This document shows, piece after piece, positions 23,955 to 31,694 of a DNA stretch of 64,000 nt (position 1 is the stretch's first letter; every line of letters starts with the position of its first letter). Made by a program: the position numbers and the translations under genes. The DNA lies in assembly GCF_027913035.1 (NCBI RefSeq), contig NZ_CP115775.1, positions 62,001 through 126,000 on the forward strand, given 5' to 3'. Under the pieces are notes generated by a model that worked only from the letters and a program-made list of their open reading frames with translations, searched no databases and was not told the DNA's origin. This DNA is from Paracoccus albus. Its GTDB lineage: Bacteria; Pseudomonadota; Alphaproteobacteria; Rhodobacterales; Rhodobacteraceae.

Positions 23955-24087
23955 AGCGTCCTCGGCTCCTTCCTTCGTCTGTTTTCTGGTCTGGCTACAG
24001 CTGGGTTGCCGATGGCTACACGTTGTAAGACGAAGTCGGGGGCCGGATTTTCTGCCACCGTTCAGACTTTTTTTACTTTTTTTGTGT

Positions 24088-25059
24088 TCAGATATCCGAA
24101 ATGACCAGCATCAGCGGTGAAATGCGCCGAACATTGCTGCCAAAAGGTGCGACTACTGCCCGTAGGGCCGCTTCGGGCTGGCTAAGATTATACACTCCGC
24201 TGACCCGCCGGTTGCGCAGCGAAGGATCAGCGATCACCACGCGGGCATCGTGCCAGCGTGCGATTCGTGCGACCACGGTCGCAACGGTTTCATTCTCGAC
24301 CTGGACCATCCCGTTGCGCCATGATGCAATTGTGCTGGCTTCACGTTTCCCGCGAATGGTCGGGGTCTCGCCTTCCGTGAACGCTATCCAGTCGCCGGCA
24401 ATCAACCGTTCGGGAACCGGCATGTCGTTTGACATGGTCTCAACAATGCCACGCTCTACCGAAACGGAAACGCTATCCGCGTCTATGCTTAGATCGAACG
24501 AGGTGCCAAGCACCTGAACAGAGACCGCGCCGGCCATTACCGTGAACGGCTTTGCGGGATCGGGCGCGACATCGAAATAGGCCATACCTTTCAGCAGGTC
24601 GACCTGTCGGGTGGAATCGTCGATCCGCACACGGATTGCGCTGTCCGGGCCAAGGGCAACGGCACTGCCATCTGAAAGTTGCAGATTTCGTATCTCGCCC
24701 TTCGTGGTCAGGTGGTCGGCCGTTGCGCGCAGCATGAGCGGCGGCAAGAAAAGGGTTCCGCAGGCCGCCGCAAGCGTCGCCGCTGTACCGCCCAGAAACA
24801 GAGATCGACGCGACAGGCGACGCTTTGCAACTGTCGGAGGCTGCCGCGCGCGCACGATCTGGCGCGACATGAAGTCGATGCCTGCAGCGCGGGTCCAGAC
24901 CTGTTGATACATCGTTCCTCGCCCGCGCCAGCTATCCGCACAGATGTGAAGCGCCGGATTTCCCGGATCATCGCGAAGACGCGTCAGAAGCTCGAACGCC
25001 TCCCGATACATCTGATCCACCTGCGCTTTATCGCTGGTCACGAAACTTTTCCCCGACAT
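24088..25059 (-). CDS. fecR: FecR family anti-sigma/signal transducer
   Basis: A 323-residue inner-membrane protein. An N-terminal cytoplasmic segment of about 85 residues would hold the sigma factor. A single hydrophobic span follows (about 87-112), preceded by a twin-arginine-like RRSLFLGG. The periplasmic FecR domain (LSDGSAVALGPDSAIRVRI, GTSFDLSIDADSVSVSVERG) ends with a DUF4974-like region that contacts the receptor STN domain. It lies between fecI and the receptor gene. Confidence 0.9.
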   Translation of the reverse strand: MSGKSFVTSDKAQVDQMYREAFELLTRLRDDPGNPALHICADSWRGRGTMYQQVWTRAAGIDFMSRQIVRARQPPTVAKRRLSRRSLFLGGTAATLAAACGTLFLPPLMLRATADHLTTKGEIRNLQLSDGSAVALGPDSAIRVRIDDSTRQVDLLKGMAYFDVAPDPAKPFTVMAGAVSVQVLGTSFDLSIDADSVSVSVERGIVETMSNDMPVPERLIAGDWIAFTEGETPTIRGKREASTIASWRNGMVQVENETVATVVARIARWHDARVVIADPSLRNRRVSGVYNLSQPEAALRAVVAPFGSNVRRISPLMLVISDI

Positions 25060-25110
25060 CCAACCCGGAAATCTGATGCCAACTGTAGGCCACGGACTTC
25101 CGATCCCCCC

Positions 25111-25668
25111 TCATTTCTCCGCCTCGTCAGATGACATGAAAGAATCCTCATCGTCCAGAGCCTCGCGCAACGCCTCATAAGCACGCTGGACCAATGTCCA
25201 TGTGCGCGATACGGAAAGGCCGATCGCCTCTGCCGTCTGGCTCATGGTCATCCCTTCGAGCTGGTAAAGCTCAAACGCGCGCCGGGTCTTCATCGGCAAA
25301 TCCAGCAAAGCCTTCTCGACCGTTCTCAGCTTCTGATGGTAAAGCAGATCCGCATCCTGTCCCGGCTGCGGGTCGGCGATCGCTTCTACCACCTCATGCG
25401 GGGCCTCGACGATATGACCGTATTGCGCGCTGCGGCCGCTGTCGATGGAAAGATTTCTTGCAATTTGATGCAGGTAGGCGCCTGGATTTACCAGATCAGT
25501 TTTGACTTCGGCCTTTATCAGGCGAAGAAAGACATCCTGCGTAAGGTCGGCAGATTCCTCGACACCGTGCCCGCGCCGAATAAACGCGCGCCTGATTTCG
25601 CCGGCATAGCGTTGAAACAGGTTGTTGAGTTCCCAGTTCATCATATACCGAGGAAGCGTTATCTTCAC
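25111..25668 (-). CDS. fecI: ECF sigma factor, FecI-like
   Basis: A 185-residue extracytoplasmic-function sigma factor. Region 2 is seen in LFQRYAGEIRRAFIRRGHG and DLTQDVFLRLI. Region 4 has the helix-turn-helix in LEGMTMSQTAEAIGLSVSRTW. It is expected to direct transcription of the receptor operon when FecR reports heme at the receptor. The first eight residues may not be translated; Met codons at 25644 and 25641 are alternative starts. No clear Fur box was recognised upstream by eye. Confidence 0.9.
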   Translation of the reverse strand: MKITLPRYMMNWELNNLFQRYAGEIRRAFIRRGHGVEESADLTQDVFLRLIKAEVKTDLVNPGAYLHQIARNLSIDSGRSAQYGHIVEAPHEVVEAIADPQPGQDADLLYHQKLRTVEKALLDLPMKTRRAFELYQLEGMTMSQTAEAIGLSVSRTWTLVQRAYEALREALDDEDSFMSSDEAEK

Positions 25669-25762
25669 GGGTCGGCGGAACAGCCTCTGCCTTTCGCGAA
25701 ATTTTTCGTAGCCCCTAACGGAACGCTATCTTATTGTCGAGACACGTTTTTTCTTTCGCCAT

Positions 25763-26339
25763 TAACAGCCTGCTGAAATAATCGGCCCTCTACGGCGATG
25801 TGAGAACATGATTCACCCTTGGCACGTTAACGGCGGTGGTGATTTATGCGCGGAACGGGCGAGGTGATCTGGTCGCTGTTTAGCGATGTCGATTTGGAAG
25901 AGCGCATCGCGCCGCGGCACCCTCTGCGCAAGATCATACAGGTGGTCAATGATGCGATGGCCAGCCTCGATGCGGCGTTCGGGCAGTTATTCGAACCGAT
26001 GGCATTCCTGCCCTCACTCGGGGGCGAGACGCGTTCGAATACCACCATGCCTCGCCCACAGACCCGGACGCGCGGCTGCACAGGAAATCCCCCGGCACCG
26101 GGGCGATGCTGTGTTTCACCGGGCATTCGCTGATAGAAAACCGTTGCGGCCTGATTATACAGGGCGACGGTCAGGCCGGGCGAAAGGCGGCTCTGGACAT
26201 GATCCACCGTCAGTCCCCGGGATGAGGTCTACGTCCTGTCGGTCAGACACCGAATGCGCCAGCAGGCAGCGCGTTCGCGTGACGCAGCCGTGATGCAGGG
26301 ACAGCGTTCCGGATCAGGGACTATTTCAGCGGGCTGTTA
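25763..26339 (+). mobile_element. Collapsed IS1182/IS5-like element with both terminal inverted repeats
   Basis: The left end starts TAACAGCCTGCTGAAATAAT (25763) and the right end, read on the other strand, TAACAGCCCGCTGAAATAGT (26339 backwards). These are 18 of 20 identical and resemble IS1182-type ends. Between them lie only the N-terminal and a central piece of a transposase. The whole unit is 577 bp, about a third of a normal element. No clear target duplication was found. Confidence 0.85.
25846..26218 (+). pseudogene. Transposase remnant, IS1182/IS5-like
   Basis: The first frame (from 25846) encodes the family N-terminus (SLFSDVDLEERIAPRHPLRK, then VVNDAMASLDAAF) for about 50 residues. 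After an internal deletion the homology resumes in another frame near 26039 with SPTDPDARLHRKSPGTGAML and GHSLIENRCGLIIQG, ending at a premature stop. The catalytic DDE core is mostly gone, so it cannot move by itself. The ends could still be used by a related transposase elsewhere. Confidence 0.85.
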
Positions 26340-26364
26340 GATACAGCGCAGCGATTGACATGAC

Positions 26365-26390
26365 GAATGCGCCCGTTTCAGGGCGCATTC
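26365..26390 (-). terminator. Hairpin downstream of the RTX gene
   Basis: A perfect 10-bp inverted repeat GAATGCGCCC-N6-GGGCGCATTC lies 26 bases past the stop of the RTX gene. No T run follows on the minus strand. It falls just outside the right end of the decayed IS. Confidence 0.5.
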
Positions 26391-26416
26391 TGGCGGAAAA
26401 ATTACCAATCCGAAAT

Positions 26417-27301
26417 TCAGATAAGGATGTCGTTCTCGTGAAGATCCGAAATCGACATTCCGACAATGGTGATAGATGAGTCATCCGCGGTGTTTATCAC
26501 CACATTCCCTCCACCATGGGTAATGGTTCCATTGTCAATCAGGTCCGAGAGTTGGCCTTCCAAGCCCAAAGCCGAGATGTCGATGACATCACCTTCTTCA
26601 GGGCCAGCATCGAAACCATAAACTTCATCATGTCCATGACCCATGAGGAAGCCGAAGGTATCCTCTTCACTGCCATTCTGACTATACAGGAGATCATCCC
26701 CGGCGCCGCCCCAGAGCATGTTCATGCCATTGCCCGCATAAACCTCGTCATTGCCTTCGCCACCGTAGAGCACGTCGTCCCCATCGCCGCCATCAAGGAA
26801 GTCGTCTCCATGATAGCCGTAGACGAGGTCATCCCCACCCTGAGCATACAGGCTGTCATTTCCCGTGCCGCCACCCATGAGGTCGTTGTCCACTCCGCCT
26901 TCTAGCCAGTCCGACCCGGTGCCACCCCAGAGGGTATCGTTGCCCGCTTCTCCCAGTAGCGAATCGTCATCGGCACCGCCGCCAAGCAGATCGCTGCCCT
27001 CTTCGCCTTTGAGCATGTCAACGCCATCGCCACCCCAAAGGGTGTCGTTGCCCTCATCGCCTTCCAGATGATCGTTCCCGTCTCCGCCAGCCAAGGCGTC
27101 ATCTCCGGATCCGCCCCAGAGGCTGTCATTCCCGGTGTCGCCAAAACCAGCCCAAATCCTGTCATCGCCGGCATTGCCATAAAGCTCATCTGCACCGTTG
27201 TAGCCAAAGAGCGTGTCGTTTCCGGTCAATCCGTTTATGATATCAAAAAACTCTGTGCCGAATATTTCGTCAGCACCGGGGGTCCCATTCAGAATAGCCA
27301 T
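26417..27301 (-). CDS. RTX (hemolysin-type calcium-binding repeat) protein
   Basis: A 294-residue protein made almost entirely of nonapeptide GGxGxDxLx repeats (GNDTLFGYNGADELYGNAGDD onward, about residues 10-215). Such repeats bind calcium and fold as a parallel beta-roll after secretion. A C-terminal block (HDEVYGFDAGPEEGDVIDIS and following hydrophobic residues) resembles serralysin-type C-terminal domains recognised by type I secretion. There is no enzymatic domain and no export gene in the window. It lies between two IS remnants, which suggests acquisition or rearrangement. The function is unknown. Confidence 0.87.
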   Translation of the reverse strand: MAILNGTPGADEIFGTEFFDIINGLTGNDTLFGYNGADELYGNAGDDRIWAGFGDTGNDSLWGGSGDDALAGGDGNDHLEGDEGNDTLWGGDGVDMLKGEEGSDLLGGGADDDSLLGEAGNDTLWGGTGSDWLEGGVDNDLMGGGTGNDSLYAQGGDDLVYGYHGDDFLDGGDGDDVLYGGEGNDEVYAGNGMNMLWGGAGDDLLYSQNGSEEDTFGFLMGHGHDEVYGFDAGPEEGDVIDISALGLEGQLSDLIDNGTITHGGGNVVINTADDSSITIVGMSISDLHENDILI

Positions 27302-27708
27302 TTCTTAATACCTCATGTTGACCTTGATCGTTCCATTGAGGATAACACCGGATATCTGGGATTGTTCCCATGAGGCATTGCTCCACATCCATTGACTTCG
27401 CGTGTTTGTTATCATCCATACTCCGTAAGCAGACTTGAACGATGACAACTTTCTCTGGCTGAGCGATGAGCGAATAGATCGTCTTGGGCCACACTTCACC
27501 AGGACTCATTGCCACCCTGAATCTACGAGCGGCACTTCTGAGGAGAATAGTTTCTATCAATCGCAATGGCTTGCGGTAGCGAAACGCACCTACTGAATAG
27601 GTAATCCTCATCGTTATAAAGGGGCGCTTTCGCAGAATTCCATGCGTTCAGTTTCATGGCGGGCGCGACACCGCCGTTGCCTATGCTGAGGCTTTCGTTG
27701 TTGTGGTA
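27302..27708. other. Stretch without a confident gene
   Basis: About 400 bases between the RTX gene and the IS256 remnant. A minus-strand frame of 113 codons (27270-27611) overlaps the RTX start and shows no recognisable domain or clear ribosome site. This stretch presumably contains the RTX promoter, but no convincing -35/-10 pair was found by eye. Confidence 0.5.
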
Positions 27709-28090
27709 GCGTCAAGACTCTTTGGCAGATTTGTTCACGCGACGACGGCTCCTTTGGTTTGATCCGCGAATAGCGGGGTCATATTCATTTATTTCCGCGT
27801 CGACCATTGGGTGCCGGCAATGTGCATCAGCCTGGCTGCGGCCAGGTTGATGCAGGATTTTCCATCGGGGAAGGCGCCGACAACACGGGTGCGAGGCCGG
27901 ATTTCCTTCATGATCCGCTCCAGCGGGTTGTTGTTCCGCAGCTTGATCCAGTGGCTGTCTGCAGTTCGCGCCTGTCCGCGCAGCGGCAAAGCTTCTGGGG
28001 GACGGTTTGAGGCAAGAACGGGCGGAGCCCGTAAGTGTGATCGCCTTCGAACTTCCGGTTCCGCCAGGCGTCAATCTTGGCATAGATCGT

Positions 28091-28127
28091 TCGCCTGTTC
28101 TCTCGGACCAGTGGCGTTCACAGGCTC
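28091..28127 (-). repeat. 37-bp hairpin insertion, copy B
   Basis: It lies inside the IS256 transposase remnant and starts TCGCCTGT and ends ACAGGCTC on the plus strand. Its arms pair GCCTGT with ACAGGC. The centre TCGGACCAGTGGC is the same as in copy A except for one base. Removing 37 bases, with one nearby single-base loss, puts the flanking transposase codons back in frame. Confidence 0.7.
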
Positions 28128-28282
28128 ACTGTTCAGGTTGCTCACCGTGCCGGGCTAACCCGCGTGCCCCGCAAAGCCTCGGTGATATCCTCGACCCGAC
28201 GCACCGACACGCCAGCCAGATACATCGCGTTCAGCGCCTCCTCGATCGAGCTTTCGCGGCGCTGATACCGCTCGATGATCAT

Positions 28283-28319
28283 TCGCCATGTCACTCGGAC
28301 CAATGGCGTGACATGGCTC
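28283..28319 (-). repeat. 37-bp hairpin insertion, copy A
   Basis: It lies inside the IS256 transposase remnant, between codons for FET and MIIERY. The plus strand starts TCGCCATGTCAC and ends GTGACATGGCTC, a perfect 10-bp inverted repeat (28285-28294 and 28308-28317) around a 13-base centre TCGGACCAATGGC. Deleting exactly these 37 bases restores the transposase frame. Confidence 0.75.
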
Positions 28320-28645
28320 GGTCTCAAACCTCTGCCGCCGCAGCTTCGGAACCTTCAGGCTGACCTTGCCAGCCTTCGTGTCCAGCAAACGCTGGCAGTT
28401 GCCTGCGCGGGTGTCTTTCCGGCCCTCGCTGCGTTCATAACGGCCCGCGCCGCAGAGCAGGTCGGCTTCCGCGTCAAGCATCGCGTTCAGCGCCTCTTCG
28501 ACCGTCCCGCGCGCCATCTCACCAAGGTGGTCGCGGATCCGCACTTCGTCGATCCGGATCACTTGCCCCATCACTTTGGGCTTCCCGTTCTCGTCAATCC
28601 TCAACTCCTCTCAGCAAGTCTGAAAGAAACCGGCATAACCGTCAA

Positions 28646-29071
28646 ATGTGCGAAAGAATTCCTAAGTTACCAAGCAACACCGTGGCGCGCGTTTCTCGAA
28701 GCGATAAATATGCCAGCCCATAGGTTCATTTTCGCACTCACCGGATAGAAGCAAGGGACGTGATTGCTGCCAATATATCGATGAGAGGCAGTTCCTTTGC
28801 CAACTATACGCTTGGCGTGCTCGTGCAGGTGGGACTGAGCGTGAAAGCCTGAAGATATCTTGCCGATGAAACGGCATTACCTGCGGCGGCAGAGTTAAAG
28901 CAATATCTCATTCTAACGGCCAGGCGGGCCGCATATTGGGCGTGTCGATCGAATTCATACGCCTTAAGTGATATCAGCCGGACCTTCTGTTTGCGCAGAG
29001 ACTGTCGGCAGGTTCTGCGTCTCTTCCTCCATTGATGTCCCAAAACGGAACGCGCACTTTGCCTCTGATCT
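28646..29071. other. Stretch without a recognisable gene
   Basis: About 430 bases between the IS256 remnant and flgD. The short frames present have no ribosome sites or familiar motifs. It may be debris left by the insertion events; nothing else can be supported. Confidence 0.5.
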
Positions 29072-29106
29072 GTATGTAAAATCGCGGCGACATCATGTTT
29101 ACATAC
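29072..29106 (-). terminator. Inverted repeat at the 3' end of flgD
   Basis: GTATGTAAA (29072-29080) and TTTACATAC (29098-29106) form a perfect 9-bp inverted repeat with a 17-base centre. The second arm covers the flgD stop codon. It could stop transcription or be a protein-binding site. The 9-mer GTATGTAAA recurs at 31743-31751. Confidence 0.4.
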
Positions 29107-29782
29107 CACGAATGGCCAATGCTTCGACATCATCCGGTTTGGCCTTCGCGCCGCCTGAGAGAGTCAAATGAACTTCACCGTCTTGGCGCGCGACCTCCAC
29201 GACGTCGGTATATGTCGGCACTTTCTCCGACGATATCATTTCGCCATGTCGAAAACGTTCGATCATGAAGCTATAAATGCCGACAGGTAAGGCCGCGCCT
29301 TTTGCGTCCAACGCTTGCCAATAAACGAGCCCTTGCTGATCCTCAACACGCTCTGACCTCACCCTGTCACCCTCAGCGTTCAGAGCTACCAAGAATACCT
29401 GATCGGCATTTGTGCTGTGGGGAATATCCATCATCAATGGATCGGCACCGACATAAACCGGCTGCGTTGTACGCACCTGCTTTCCGATCCAATCGGAATA
29501 GGCCGCCAAAGCATTCGCGCCGCCGGATTCCGTTAAATTCTTAAGAAGGTTATTGGTGTGAACCTGCTGCTCCACGCCGGAAAAAGTGGCGAGCTGAACC
29601 GCAAAATCTGACCCTTCCATCGGGTTGAGCGGGTCCTGATTTTTGATCTGTGCGGTCAGCATTTTCAGGAATGTCTGAAAATCACCGCCTACAATCAGTG
29701 CCTTTCCCGTCGGTTCTTTCAGCGGTTTTGTGGGCGCTGCCGCTTCGGCCTTGAAGGTCGTGGAAACTGCGCTGTTTACCAT
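29099..29782 (-). CDS. flgD: Flagellar hook capping protein FlgD
   Basis: A 227-residue scaffold protein needed for hook assembly. The conserved N-terminal block is present (FLKMLTAQIKNQDPLNPMEG, SDFAVQLATFSGVEQQVHTN). The C-terminal half has the FlgD Ig-like/tudor features (GLVYWQALDAKGAALPVGIY). The start at 29782 follows AGAGGAACGACACA; a longer open frame to 29935 only overlaps fliK. It lies 25 bases downstream of fliK. Confidence 0.93.
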   Translation of the reverse strand: MVNSAVSTTFKAEAAAPTKPLKEPTGKALIVGGDFQTFLKMLTAQIKNQDPLNPMEGSDFAVQLATFSGVEQQVHTNNLLKNLTESGGANALAAYSDWIGKQVRTTQPVYVGADPLMMDIPHSTNADQVFLVALNAEGDRVRSERVEDQQGLVYWQALDAKGAALPVGIYSFMIERFRHGEMISSEKVPTYTDVVEVARQDGEVHLTLSGGAKAKPDDVEALAIRGM

Positions 29783-29807
29783 TGTGTCGTTCCTCTGGAG
29801 TTGTGGC

Positions 29808-31694
29808 TCACAAGCGGATGCTGATATGGCCGTCAGCTCGGGCGCTGGTATTCCCGTCGGGCTGTGGTTCGGCGTCCCCCGCTTCGACGTTGTGATCCGG
29901 TACCGCCTGCCCATTGCTGCGTTGGTCTTTCGCAAGCGTTCGCTGTTGATCTGTATTGTTTTCTTTGCTGTCGAAGGCCAATGTCATCTCGCCCGCCTTT
30001 AAGTCAGCAAGTTCCGCCGATAAAATATCAGCATTGCGACGCAAGAGGGCTAGCGTATCCGCGCGCTCAGCGGCAATCAAAACCGTCAGATGGCCGTCGG
30101 TACTGCGTACGCTGAAGCGGACCTTTCCCAATTCCTCCGGCGACAGAACCATTTCGGTTATCCCCTTCTCAGTCCGATTTAGCACAATCGATCCGGCCAA
30201 CTGGCGCGCTATGTCGAGAGTTTTCGCAGCTGAGTTTATTTCCGGCGGGCCATGCGCCGGTTTTGGAGGGGGCGTCGAGGCGGATATTGGTGCCGCATCA
30301 GATCCAATAACCTTGGTATCCTGACCCTCTCCTTCTCTCTGAAGATGTCCGGTTAAATACTCTGCGTGCGCAAGCGTCCCGATATTTTTACCGGCTTTAT
30401 TTATCGGCCAGGCAGAAGAATGCTCGATGTCGGGCGCGAGTGAAGCGATGAACTCCAAAGAGCTGCTCGCTTCCGGATGCGATAGGTCAGGAAGTAGAAA
30501 GTCGTTATATTCGCGCGTTTGAAGTATGGAACATCGGACGCCGATTGAAGATGAACGCGACTTCGCATCTATTGCAGCATTTTTCTGTTGCGAAACATTG
30601 TTCAAAATCCGGCCGGAAACGTATGACGCAGGATGGGGGCCGAAAAACAAGACTTTGAAAGCATTATCTTCTGGCGCATTCGAAGTTACATCGAACAGAG
30701 TTATATATTCGTCTGAAACTGCGGGCCCCGCTGGAAACGCCGGCTCCGGCGTCGGTTCTACCGAAGCATGATGCGTTCCGATTCGTGTAGCTTCACTTTC
30801 GTTGATGCAAGCCCTATGAGCACTCAACATACCTGATTGTGGAAGAGGTATCTGCGTCGCGATTGCAGAGATAGAAAGCTTGTCGTATCGCGCTGATCCA
30901 GCATATTTCGCGACTTCGTCGGTTGCCGCGAGCTTGGTATTGTCGACTGCATCTTTAGCGACTATCGGTCTGGGTTGTGACTCTATTGTAACGCTATTGC
31001 CAGTTTTCCCCCGGAATAGCGTCGGGCGTTGCTGCCAATAAGGGACCAGGTGCGGTACCGTCTCATTGTCTTGCCAGCAAATGCCAATACTGTCGCTTTT
31101 GGTTTGTGCGGCTCTGTGATCTTTTGGCGCCGCAATCCGATGGCTAGGCTGCACAACCAAACCGGATCGGCGCGTTCCGTTCTCTGTCGATGCAATGGCC
31201 GGGTGCCATGCTGTTCGAACTGGTTGTGGAACGCCTGAGGACCTCCCCACAGTAGCAGAAGGAGGAGCATGAAGAGCAATAGGCTCGCTAACATCCAATA
31301 CTTTAGGCGACTTTTCCAGGTCGACCTCACTTGCGCCTATGTGTGACGAAGCCGTTGCGGTTGGTTCACTGAAGTTTGGTTCCTCACTGGACCGGCCGTG
31401 GTCGCAATGTGAGAAAAAAGATAACCTCTCAACCCGCCAAGATTTGTCATGCTGGCATGGCATATGGCCTGCGTTTGGCTTGCAGGTTGTATCATCGTCT
31501 TCTGCTAACTGTTGCGAAAACAAAGCGTCCGGAAGGTCGTTACTTTGGGGCCGAACGACGGGCCGAACTTCGGCTGCGATCGTATTATCAAAAAGCCACG
31601 CGAATGCCCCTTTCGAATGCGCGCTTGCGTCATTCTTGTTTTTCGATGATGACTGCTGGCCCTCGGGCAATGATCCAATGATTCGTAGTTCCAT
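29808..31694 (-). CDS. fliK: Flagellar hook-length control protein FliK
   Basis: A 628-residue protein that measures hook length and triggers the export switch. The first roughly 500 residues are low in complexity and variable, as in other FliK proteins. The C-terminal Flg_hook domain is recognisable: LNRTEKGITEMVLSPEELGK, VRFSVRSTDGHLTVLIAAER and LRRNADILSAELADLKAGEM. The gene is more AT-rich than the surrounding core genes. It precedes flgD and is divergent from the flgJ-like gene. Confidence 0.88.
   Translation of the reverse strand: MELRIIGSLPEGQQSSSKNKNDASAHSKGAFAWLFDNTIAAEVRPVVRPQSNDLPDALFSQQLAEDDDTTCKPNAGHMPCQHDKSWRVERLSFFSHCDHGRSSEEPNFSEPTATASSHIGASEVDLEKSPKVLDVSEPIALHAPPSATVGRSSGVPQPVRTAWHPAIASTENGTRRSGLVVQPSHRIAAPKDHRAAQTKSDSIGICWQDNETVPHLVPYWQQRPTLFRGKTGNSVTIESQPRPIVAKDAVDNTKLAATDEVAKYAGSARYDKLSISAIATQIPLPQSGMLSAHRACINESEATRIGTHHASVEPTPEPAFPAGPAVSDEYITLFDVTSNAPEDNAFKVLFFGPHPASYVSGRILNNVSQQKNAAIDAKSRSSSIGVRCSILQTREYNDFLLPDLSHPEASSSLEFIASLAPDIEHSSAWPINKAGKNIGTLAHAEYLTGHLQREGEGQDTKVIGSDAAPISASTPPPKPAHGPPEINSAAKTLDIARQLAGSIVLNRTEKGITEMVLSPEELGKVRFSVRSTDGHLTVLIAAERADTLALLRRNADILSAELADLKAGEMTLAFDSKENNTDQQRTLAKDQRSNGQAVPDHNVEAGDAEPQPDGNTSARADGHISIRL

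Follow-up and report, generated by a model that had tools for sequence, protein, structure and literature searches.

Dispersed ~41-nt palindromes, probably mobile as DNA, in transposase genes of Rhodobacteraceae

In the window analyzed here, a stretch of 64,000 nt from Paracoccus albus (contig NZ_CP115775.1, positions 62,001–126,000), a decayed transposase gene is interrupted twice by a short palindromic block, which raises the question of what these blocks are and how they came to lie there. A reading of the letters alone had described two 37-nt blocks in the same orientation, with common ends and a common center and with stems that differ yet pair with themselves, and had proposed either a small mobile hairpin or a structured RNA repeat. 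Both blocks are present as claimed: on the minus strand, units A and B (Table 1) read GAGCC...CGCCAYTGGTCCGAG...GGCGA with differing arms, each self-complementary, and lie sense to the IS256 transposase remnant, A between FET and IIERY and B between VSNLN and IYAKI. A third unit, C, lies antisense to a transposase fragment that we take, from its translation, to be IS5-like; Pfam gave no match for 25843–25974, which is part of this fragment. Including the fragment in the window, the genome has five such IS5-like fragments (the others in L050, L053, L054, and L056) that carry a unit at apparently one site, and these units differ slightly in sequence. An RTX calcium-binding repeat ORF (26417–27301, Pfam HemolysinCabind) lies between the two transposase remnants. 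FecR-like and sigma-70-like genes, neighbors that form an apparent regulatory pair, occupy 24088–25668, and FlgD-like and FliK-like flagellar hook genes (29099–31694) follow just past the IS256 remnant.

Table 1. Units, their hosts in the window, and non-transposase genes carrying units (plain coordinates are window positions; L numbers denote loci from other searches)
Feature	Position or locus	Strand	Basis	Remark
Unit A	28281..28321 (core 28283–28319 = GAGCCATGTCACGCCATTGGTCCGAGTGACATGGCGA)	-	covariance model, E 1.2e-9, 51.1 bits	10-bp stem
Unit B	28089..28129 (core 28091–28127 = GAGCCTGTGAACGCCACTGGTCCGAGAGAACAGGCGA)	-	covariance model, E 3.5e-14, 68 bits	
Unit C	25977..26017 (core 25979–26015), GT-GAGGGCAGGAATGCCATCGGTTCGAATAACTGCCCGA-AC	-	covariance model, E 3.3e-9	missed by the sequence-only reading
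Decayed IS256-family (Mutator) transposase remnant	27789..28604	-	Pfam Transposase_mut, 1.1e-13 for 28323–28598; relatives L253/L254	host of A and B
IS5-like transposase fragment	25843..26133	+	inspection	host of C
NrdJ (class II ribonucleotide reductase)	L064		NCBIfam PRK07562	in-frame unit
GTA baseplate "megatron"	L014/L068, 940–980 and 2004–2044		NCBIfam	two units in one gene, in frame
GTA baseplate "megatron"	L142, 440–480		NCBIfam; Pfam GTA_TIM	one unit, in frame
Phage terminase, capsid, and portal genes				carry units
Small unidentified gene	L105			carries a unit
Gene 3' end	L178			unit there; the one of 10 non-transposase sites outside the in-frame set

Architecture and covariation of the units

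Copies from many genomes could be aligned without gaps over 41 columns. The outermost two columns on each side pair with one another, and the next two form a conserved, unpaired GA/GA step; inward of this step come six variable complementary pairs, followed by a second GA/GA or by full pairing, so that a variable stem of 6–10 bp encloses a 13-nt loop, GCCAYYGGTYCGA. The ends GAG..CGA were found in nearly all copies, both in an alignment of 49 copies and at 105 distinct sites (131 best-scoring or pattern-matched copies, merged when the flanks were >70% identical on both sides, with short flanks dropped). At these 105 sites the outer dinucleotides were GT/AC in 42 cases, TC/GG in 24, and GC/GC in 12. 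Unit B has the complementary flanks GT/AC, whereas those of unit A (CC/AT) are non-complementary, unlike in most copies, and A is among the few sites where the outer dinucleotides do not pair. The two flanking base pairs covary as well, and 41 nt is therefore a better length for the unit than 37.

In the ungapped alignment of the 49 copies (46 distinct), 95.2% of the cells at nine pairs were paired, against a mean of 66.7% in shuffled alignments, and 111 double-sided changes were counted against a shuffled mean of 32.3, a number matched by 0 of 500 shuffles. The covariation score was 0.703, compared with 0.169 for the shuffles and at most 0.112 for versions of the structure slid along the alignment, over which the scored pairs have a built-in advantage, having been picked by eye from the same family. 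The number of further pair types did not separate the alignment from its control (21 versus 20.4; reached by 233 of 500 shuffles). The differing, self-pairing stems claimed for the two blocks are confirmed. Among six copies that were folded, unit A had a clearly low energy (RNA z −4.1), while those of unit B (RNA z −0.87, DNA z −1.20) and of the copy in NrdJ (RNA z −1.2) were not, that of B being unremarkable; the case for a hairpin rests on covariation rather than on folding energy.

Occurrence, empty sites, and comparison with known repeats

A covariance model built from the 49 copies was used for genome searches. Further copies in the host genome had been named in advance as a test of the idea, and nine were found there (E 3.5e-14 to 2.1e-4). 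In the genus Paracoccus, 109 of 125 genomes had matches at E≤0.05, a loose cut-off at which a few genomes may be false. In the family Rhodobacteraceae, 127 of 295 genomes matched at E≤0.001, whereas in a sample of the class only 8 of 385 did so at E≤1e-4, five of them outside the family; the two cut-offs differ, and the contrast is approximate. The host range is nearly one family. A degenerate 37-mer pattern allowing up to three mismatches was present in 42 of the 295 genomes and the reversed pattern gave zero matches in every genome listed, in agreement with the earlier claim that the blocks exceed chance. Exact pattern matches were obtained on nine named alphaproteobacterial contigs, Rhodobacteraceae among them, and the pattern matched six IMG/VR contigs; NZ_NSJZ01000018 of P. 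salipaludis is among the contigs with a pattern match. A single 41-nt query gave no match in INPHARED (GenBank phage genomes), and none of 4227 Rfam families matched window positions 24000–31000 at E≤1. No description of the hairpin family was found in the open-access literature searched, subscription papers being outside the scope of the search, and the loop 13-mer occurred there in one paper, on tRNA fragments in sensory-organ disease. The family is apparently undescribed. This mobile repeat, matched in 127 of 295 sampled genomes of a large bacterial family, seems never to have been named; the probable reasons are its length of only 41 nt and the change of stem from copy to copy, which hides the repeat from similarity searches.

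Comparison with unoccupied relatives showed what the unit does to its site. Relatives of the IS256 remnant without the blocks had also been proposed as a test, and they exist: both blocks are missing from the 401-aa IS256 transposase of Ca. Tenderia electrophaga (NCBIfam transpos_IS256), and in a Bradyrhizobium relative the sequence runs uninterrupted through site A, where the window reads TTTGAGA-CC[37]AT-GATCATC and a relative reads TTCGAGA-CGGC-GATTATC. Against these relatives the frame closes at A after exactly 37 nt, as had been stated, and the single-base loss suspected near B is real, a separate 1-nt gap relative to both. By eye, sites A and B are apparently homologous to unit sites in other IS256 members (L169, L188). 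Elsewhere, the unit likewise replaces a target of 4–5 bp, with a net gain of about 36 to 38 bp. CCAGAA-TC[unit]GG-CGCGACA in L063 corresponds to CCAGAA-CGAC-CGCGACA in L018 (flanks 96–97% identical), AAGG-GT[unit]AC-GCTTTT in L018 to AAGG-CGACG-GCTTTT in L024 (94–98%), and GAGGA-GT[unit]AC-AACGCC in L021 to GAGGA-CGAG-AACGCC in L130, an IS3 on a P. yeei plasmid; L071, L046, and L028 are also listed among the empty-site comparisons. In NrdJ, GATG-GT[unit]AC-GCT stands against GACG-GCAGC-GCC in one relative. From these occupied and empty pairs it follows that the outer dinucleotides arrive with the unit. A 2-bp GA target-site duplication was rejected, since 4–5 bp are replaced at the empty sites, and so was an origin of the flanks by later palindrome correction, since the GT/AC of L021 matches neither original flank in L130.

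The target preference is weak: across the 105 sites, A occurred at −3 in 72, G at −4 in 59, and G at +3 in 77, which can be summarized as RGA to the left of the unit and G to its right, whichever way the unit is oriented. The site in IS3 OrfA between LE(E/D) and EN was occupied in five copies that, nearby, are 37–68% identical to one another (except L007 and L021, 83%); in this region, L021 shares 93% identity with the empty P. yeei L130 but 41–66% with the occupied L029, L030, and L033 and 83% with L007. The same codons seem to have been hit independently in divergent IS copies.

We compared the units with known short repeats. REPs fall into groups according to a GTAG or CGTC tag, and the CGTC class, which includes RPE-4 and RPE-6, is described as having an unpaired CGTC tag, a CCA-like tail, and a loop of 4–5 nt, as being capable of intragenic placement, and as having no known dedicated transposase (PMC3733652). 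RPEs are inserted in frame in many genes (PMC10969869). The present units resemble RPEs and CGTC REPs in being short alphaproteobacterial palindromes that lie in frame in genes for unrelated proteins and read as extra peptides (PMC10969869, PMC3733652), but they have no CGTC tag, carry a long conserved loop, replace target bases, and reside mostly in transposase genes of Rhodobacteraceae; furthermore, RPEs were first reported as ~150 bp long, against ~41 nt here. The GTAG REPs and REPINs associated with RAYT are similar as hairpins of 20–40 nt with alternative complementary stems (PMC3733652), but the units lack the GTAG tag, show no association with RAYT, and are intragenic, whereas REPs are mainly intergenic. 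Neither tag, GTAG or CGTC, was found in the 49-copy alignment or at the 105 distinct sites. Judged by their sequences, the units appear to behave like RPEs in non-transposase genes, where they lie in frame in unrelated, presumably functional genes at 9 of 10 sites with a predicted peptide, but their tag, loop, and size are not those of RPEs or REPs. As far as our searches show, residence in transposase genes with replacement of bases is undescribed in the open-access literature searched.

It is improbable that the units are an ordinary REP family, of the GTAG or CGTC kind, moved by a RAYT or IS200-type tyrosine transposase. Their similar size, palindromy, alternative complementary stems, and intragenic copies reading as peptides would fit such a family, as would the predominance of CGTC REPs, without a dedicated transposase, in Alphaproteobacteria that is reported in PMC3733652. 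Against it are the missing tags, the loop of 13 nt instead of the 4–5 nt of CGTC REPs, the replacement of 4–5 bp of target, and the placement of the examined copies mostly in transposase genes and not between genes. Moreover, the domain Y1_Tnp (PF01797) was found in only 12 of the 125 genus genomes, and no unit lay near any of 10 Y1 loci, taken from 10 of these 12 genomes with G085, G106, and Y1 copies on other contigs set aside; occurrence and context both disfavor a RAYT/Y1 transposase as the mobilizer. No mobilizing enzyme was found.

Two further classes are set apart from the units. A MITE is defined by a target-site duplication and by terminal inverted repeats shared with a known IS; here the 4–5 bp target is replaced, not duplicated, and no parent IS was recognized, short of a systematic search. 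The small dispersed repeats of cyanobacteria are very small mobile repeats inside other repeated elements, and they differ from the units, by description only, in lineage, sequence, and hairpin architecture.

Host genes and reading frame

Pfam searches of the coding segments abutting the 105 sites gave, among the best 25 of 46 families, rve (23), rve_3 (10), DDE_Tnp_1 (10), HTH_21 (9), HTH_Tnp_1 (7), Transposase_mut (6), rve_2 (6), and MULE (5), with single matches to IstB_IS21, TnpB_IS66, Zn_Tnp_IS91, and DDE_3, a few phage families, and NrdJ; one protein may match several of these. In all, at least eight IS families have units in their transposase genes. In one genome (G112), all 29 units at E≤0.001 were in transposase genes or remnants, judged by reading the translations, and up to five units, in both orientations, can share a single IS copy. 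No clear intergenic copy was seen in this sample, which consists mainly of best-scoring hits and includes several unnamed hosts; the 49 family-level loci are likewise a non-random set, top-scoring and mostly one per genome, with unnamed hosts such as L135, L143, L168, L174, and L185. The non-transposase hosts are listed in Table 1; NrdJ and the megatron did not reach the NCBIfam whole-protein cut-offs, since the scan covered only part of each gene.

Orientation and frame were examined in 180 copies at 145 distinct sites, of which 10 non-transposase sites had been picked by hand beforehand (the near-duplicates L140, L151, and L047:383 were merged away from this set) and the remaining 135 were classed wholesale as transposase-like or unclassified. 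At 118 of the latter, with a coding score of ≥8 on at least one side, 71 units were sense and 47 antisense, a mild sense bias. At the 60 transposase-like sites scoring ≥8 on both sides, the unit was in frame in 27 (stop-free in 23) and shifted the frame in 33, whereas 9 of the 10 non-transposase sites were in frame and stop-free. In NrdJ, none of 30 aligned relatives has the insert or, at the empty locus, a match to the covariance model; the protein has 12 extra residues compared with 22 of them and 16 compared with the other eight, in a loop of already variable length. As read, the predicted peptide in NrdJ spans EQANATGPREPAN, and the peptide predicted from the units generally has ~12–13 residues of the type GExxxATGPxxxAN. 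Because 9 of 10 non-transposase units are in frame and open, compared with 23 of 60 transposase-like ones, the unit probably ends up in the protein instead of being spliced out or skipped. These genes would then offer a natural series of in-frame peptide insertions in an essential type of enzyme and in gene-transfer-agent proteins.

Several IS elements have multiplied in interrupted form. All seven full-length copies of a 1235-bp IS3 (L087) on the single contig of G038 carry a frame-breaking 38-nt unit in OrfB; two copies compared directly are 99.8% identical, and a BLAST search of G038 (E≤0.001) gave no copy free of the unit. G112 has four IS481-like copies, 99.9–100% identical over ~960 bp, in which a unit near the N-terminus apparently breaks the frame, and G115 has an IS in three copies with five units in each. 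These elements presumably multiplied after interruption, by transposase acting in trans, and simple inactivation of the IS by insertion does not explain them without such help.

An alternative is that the unit acts at the RNA or ribosome level, being spliced out or bypassed so that interrupted transposases still work, an idea suggested by the IS3 of G038. Bypassing elements are known from gene 60 of phage T4 and, as byps, from the mitochondria of Magnusiomyces; like the present units, they are hairpins of tens of nucleotides that interrupt coding frames. The uniformly interrupted G038 copies would suit this idea, and so would the unit's ability to fold as RNA, an OrfB that is open throughout behind an interrupted OrfA in L029, and the arithmetic of length, by which removal of the exact GAG...CGA core keeps the frame at IS256 site A, IS3 OrfA, and the OrfB of G038. 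However, a bypassing element or mini-intron is expected in sense placement only and should be missing from the product, and the unit is antisense at 47 of the 118 sites counted as transposase-like or unclassified; units in non-transposase genes are open and in frame as read, and their precise removal would break the frames of NrdJ and the GTA genes. L007 and L021 have additional frameshifts besides the unit, and in L133 (an IS3 on a Tritonibacter mobilis plasmid) the unit replaces residues of SDNG, which we take to be a catalytic motif. The idea was dropped after the in-frame cases in NrdJ, GTA, and phage genes and the antisense placement, and we now regard it as very unlikely. For the same reasons, namely both orientations in host genes and an open in-frame reading in non-transposase genes, the structured RNA repeat of the sequence-only reading is not favored, while its mobile hairpin was largely right, given the dispersed copies, empty sites, covarying stems, and conserved loop. 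L133 itself has two in-frame units, at 1787–1826 (sense) and 1999–2041 (antisense), at or next to residues presumed to be the catalytic aspartates of the DDE domain.

Proposed movement and its consequences

Taken together, our preferred reading, to which we give a probability of about 0.75, is that the blocks are ~41-nt non-autonomous mobile palindromes of Rhodobacteraceae that spread at the DNA level; movement here is deduced from the empty sites and the dispersal. The unit would move as DNA, its likely form being a folded single strand whose loop and GA step are recognized by a putative enzyme supplied in trans. Stems that vary around a fixed loop would follow if this enzyme needs the shape of the hairpin and not the sequence of its arms. 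Most copies ride in transposase and phage genes, which would carry them between cells. In genes under selection, only in-frame insertions would survive, to be translated as a peptide of ~12–13 residues; in transposases, insertion would often shift the frame or replace important residues and leave a decaying IS such as the one in the window, making the units a possible cause of many transposase pseudogenes. The question raised is which enzyme inserts a hairpin while removing a 4–5 bp target.

A much bolder form of this reading, which we consider doubtful, is that the unit is hyperparasitic DNA, a hairpin of ~41 nt moving in trans by substitution, with its stem rewritten and its loop fixed, steered to transposase and phage codons as a standing brake on ISs across Rhodobacteraceae by a chemistry unlike known bacterial transposition. 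A separate proposal, that the host or an element encodes a process that deliberately sets hairpins into transposase and phage genes to restrain mobile DNA, has little chance of being correct. Residence mainly in transposase genes, with at least eight IS families affected, recurrent sites, up to five units in an IS copy, and a unit at a presumed DDE residue would agree with it, but the host gene NrdJ and GTA genes are hit too, selection against frame-breaking insertions in needed genes could yield much of the bias, and no enzyme was found. Template switching during replication perfects hairpin arms, and it could keep varying stems paired, but that quasi-palindromes arose or were perfected in this way at each site, with no mobile unit at all, is hardly credible and largely refuted, for such errors cannot supply the same 13-nt loop, GA/GA step, and outer dinucleotides at unrelated sites across many genera.

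A tRNA T-arm or another master copy of the loop was also considered for the mobile palindromes and rejected: a 14-mer search of the window's own genome gave five matches, four of them units, against four for the reversed control. In G054, the units at L064 1501–1541 and L016 1499–1539 have swapped arms (CAGG..CCTG versus CCTG..CAGG), by chance or by inversion of the arms. On a P. yeei plasmid (locus L126), an IS3 starts within 1–2 nt of the edge of a unit (2501–2541), and this IS possibly favors hairpins as targets.
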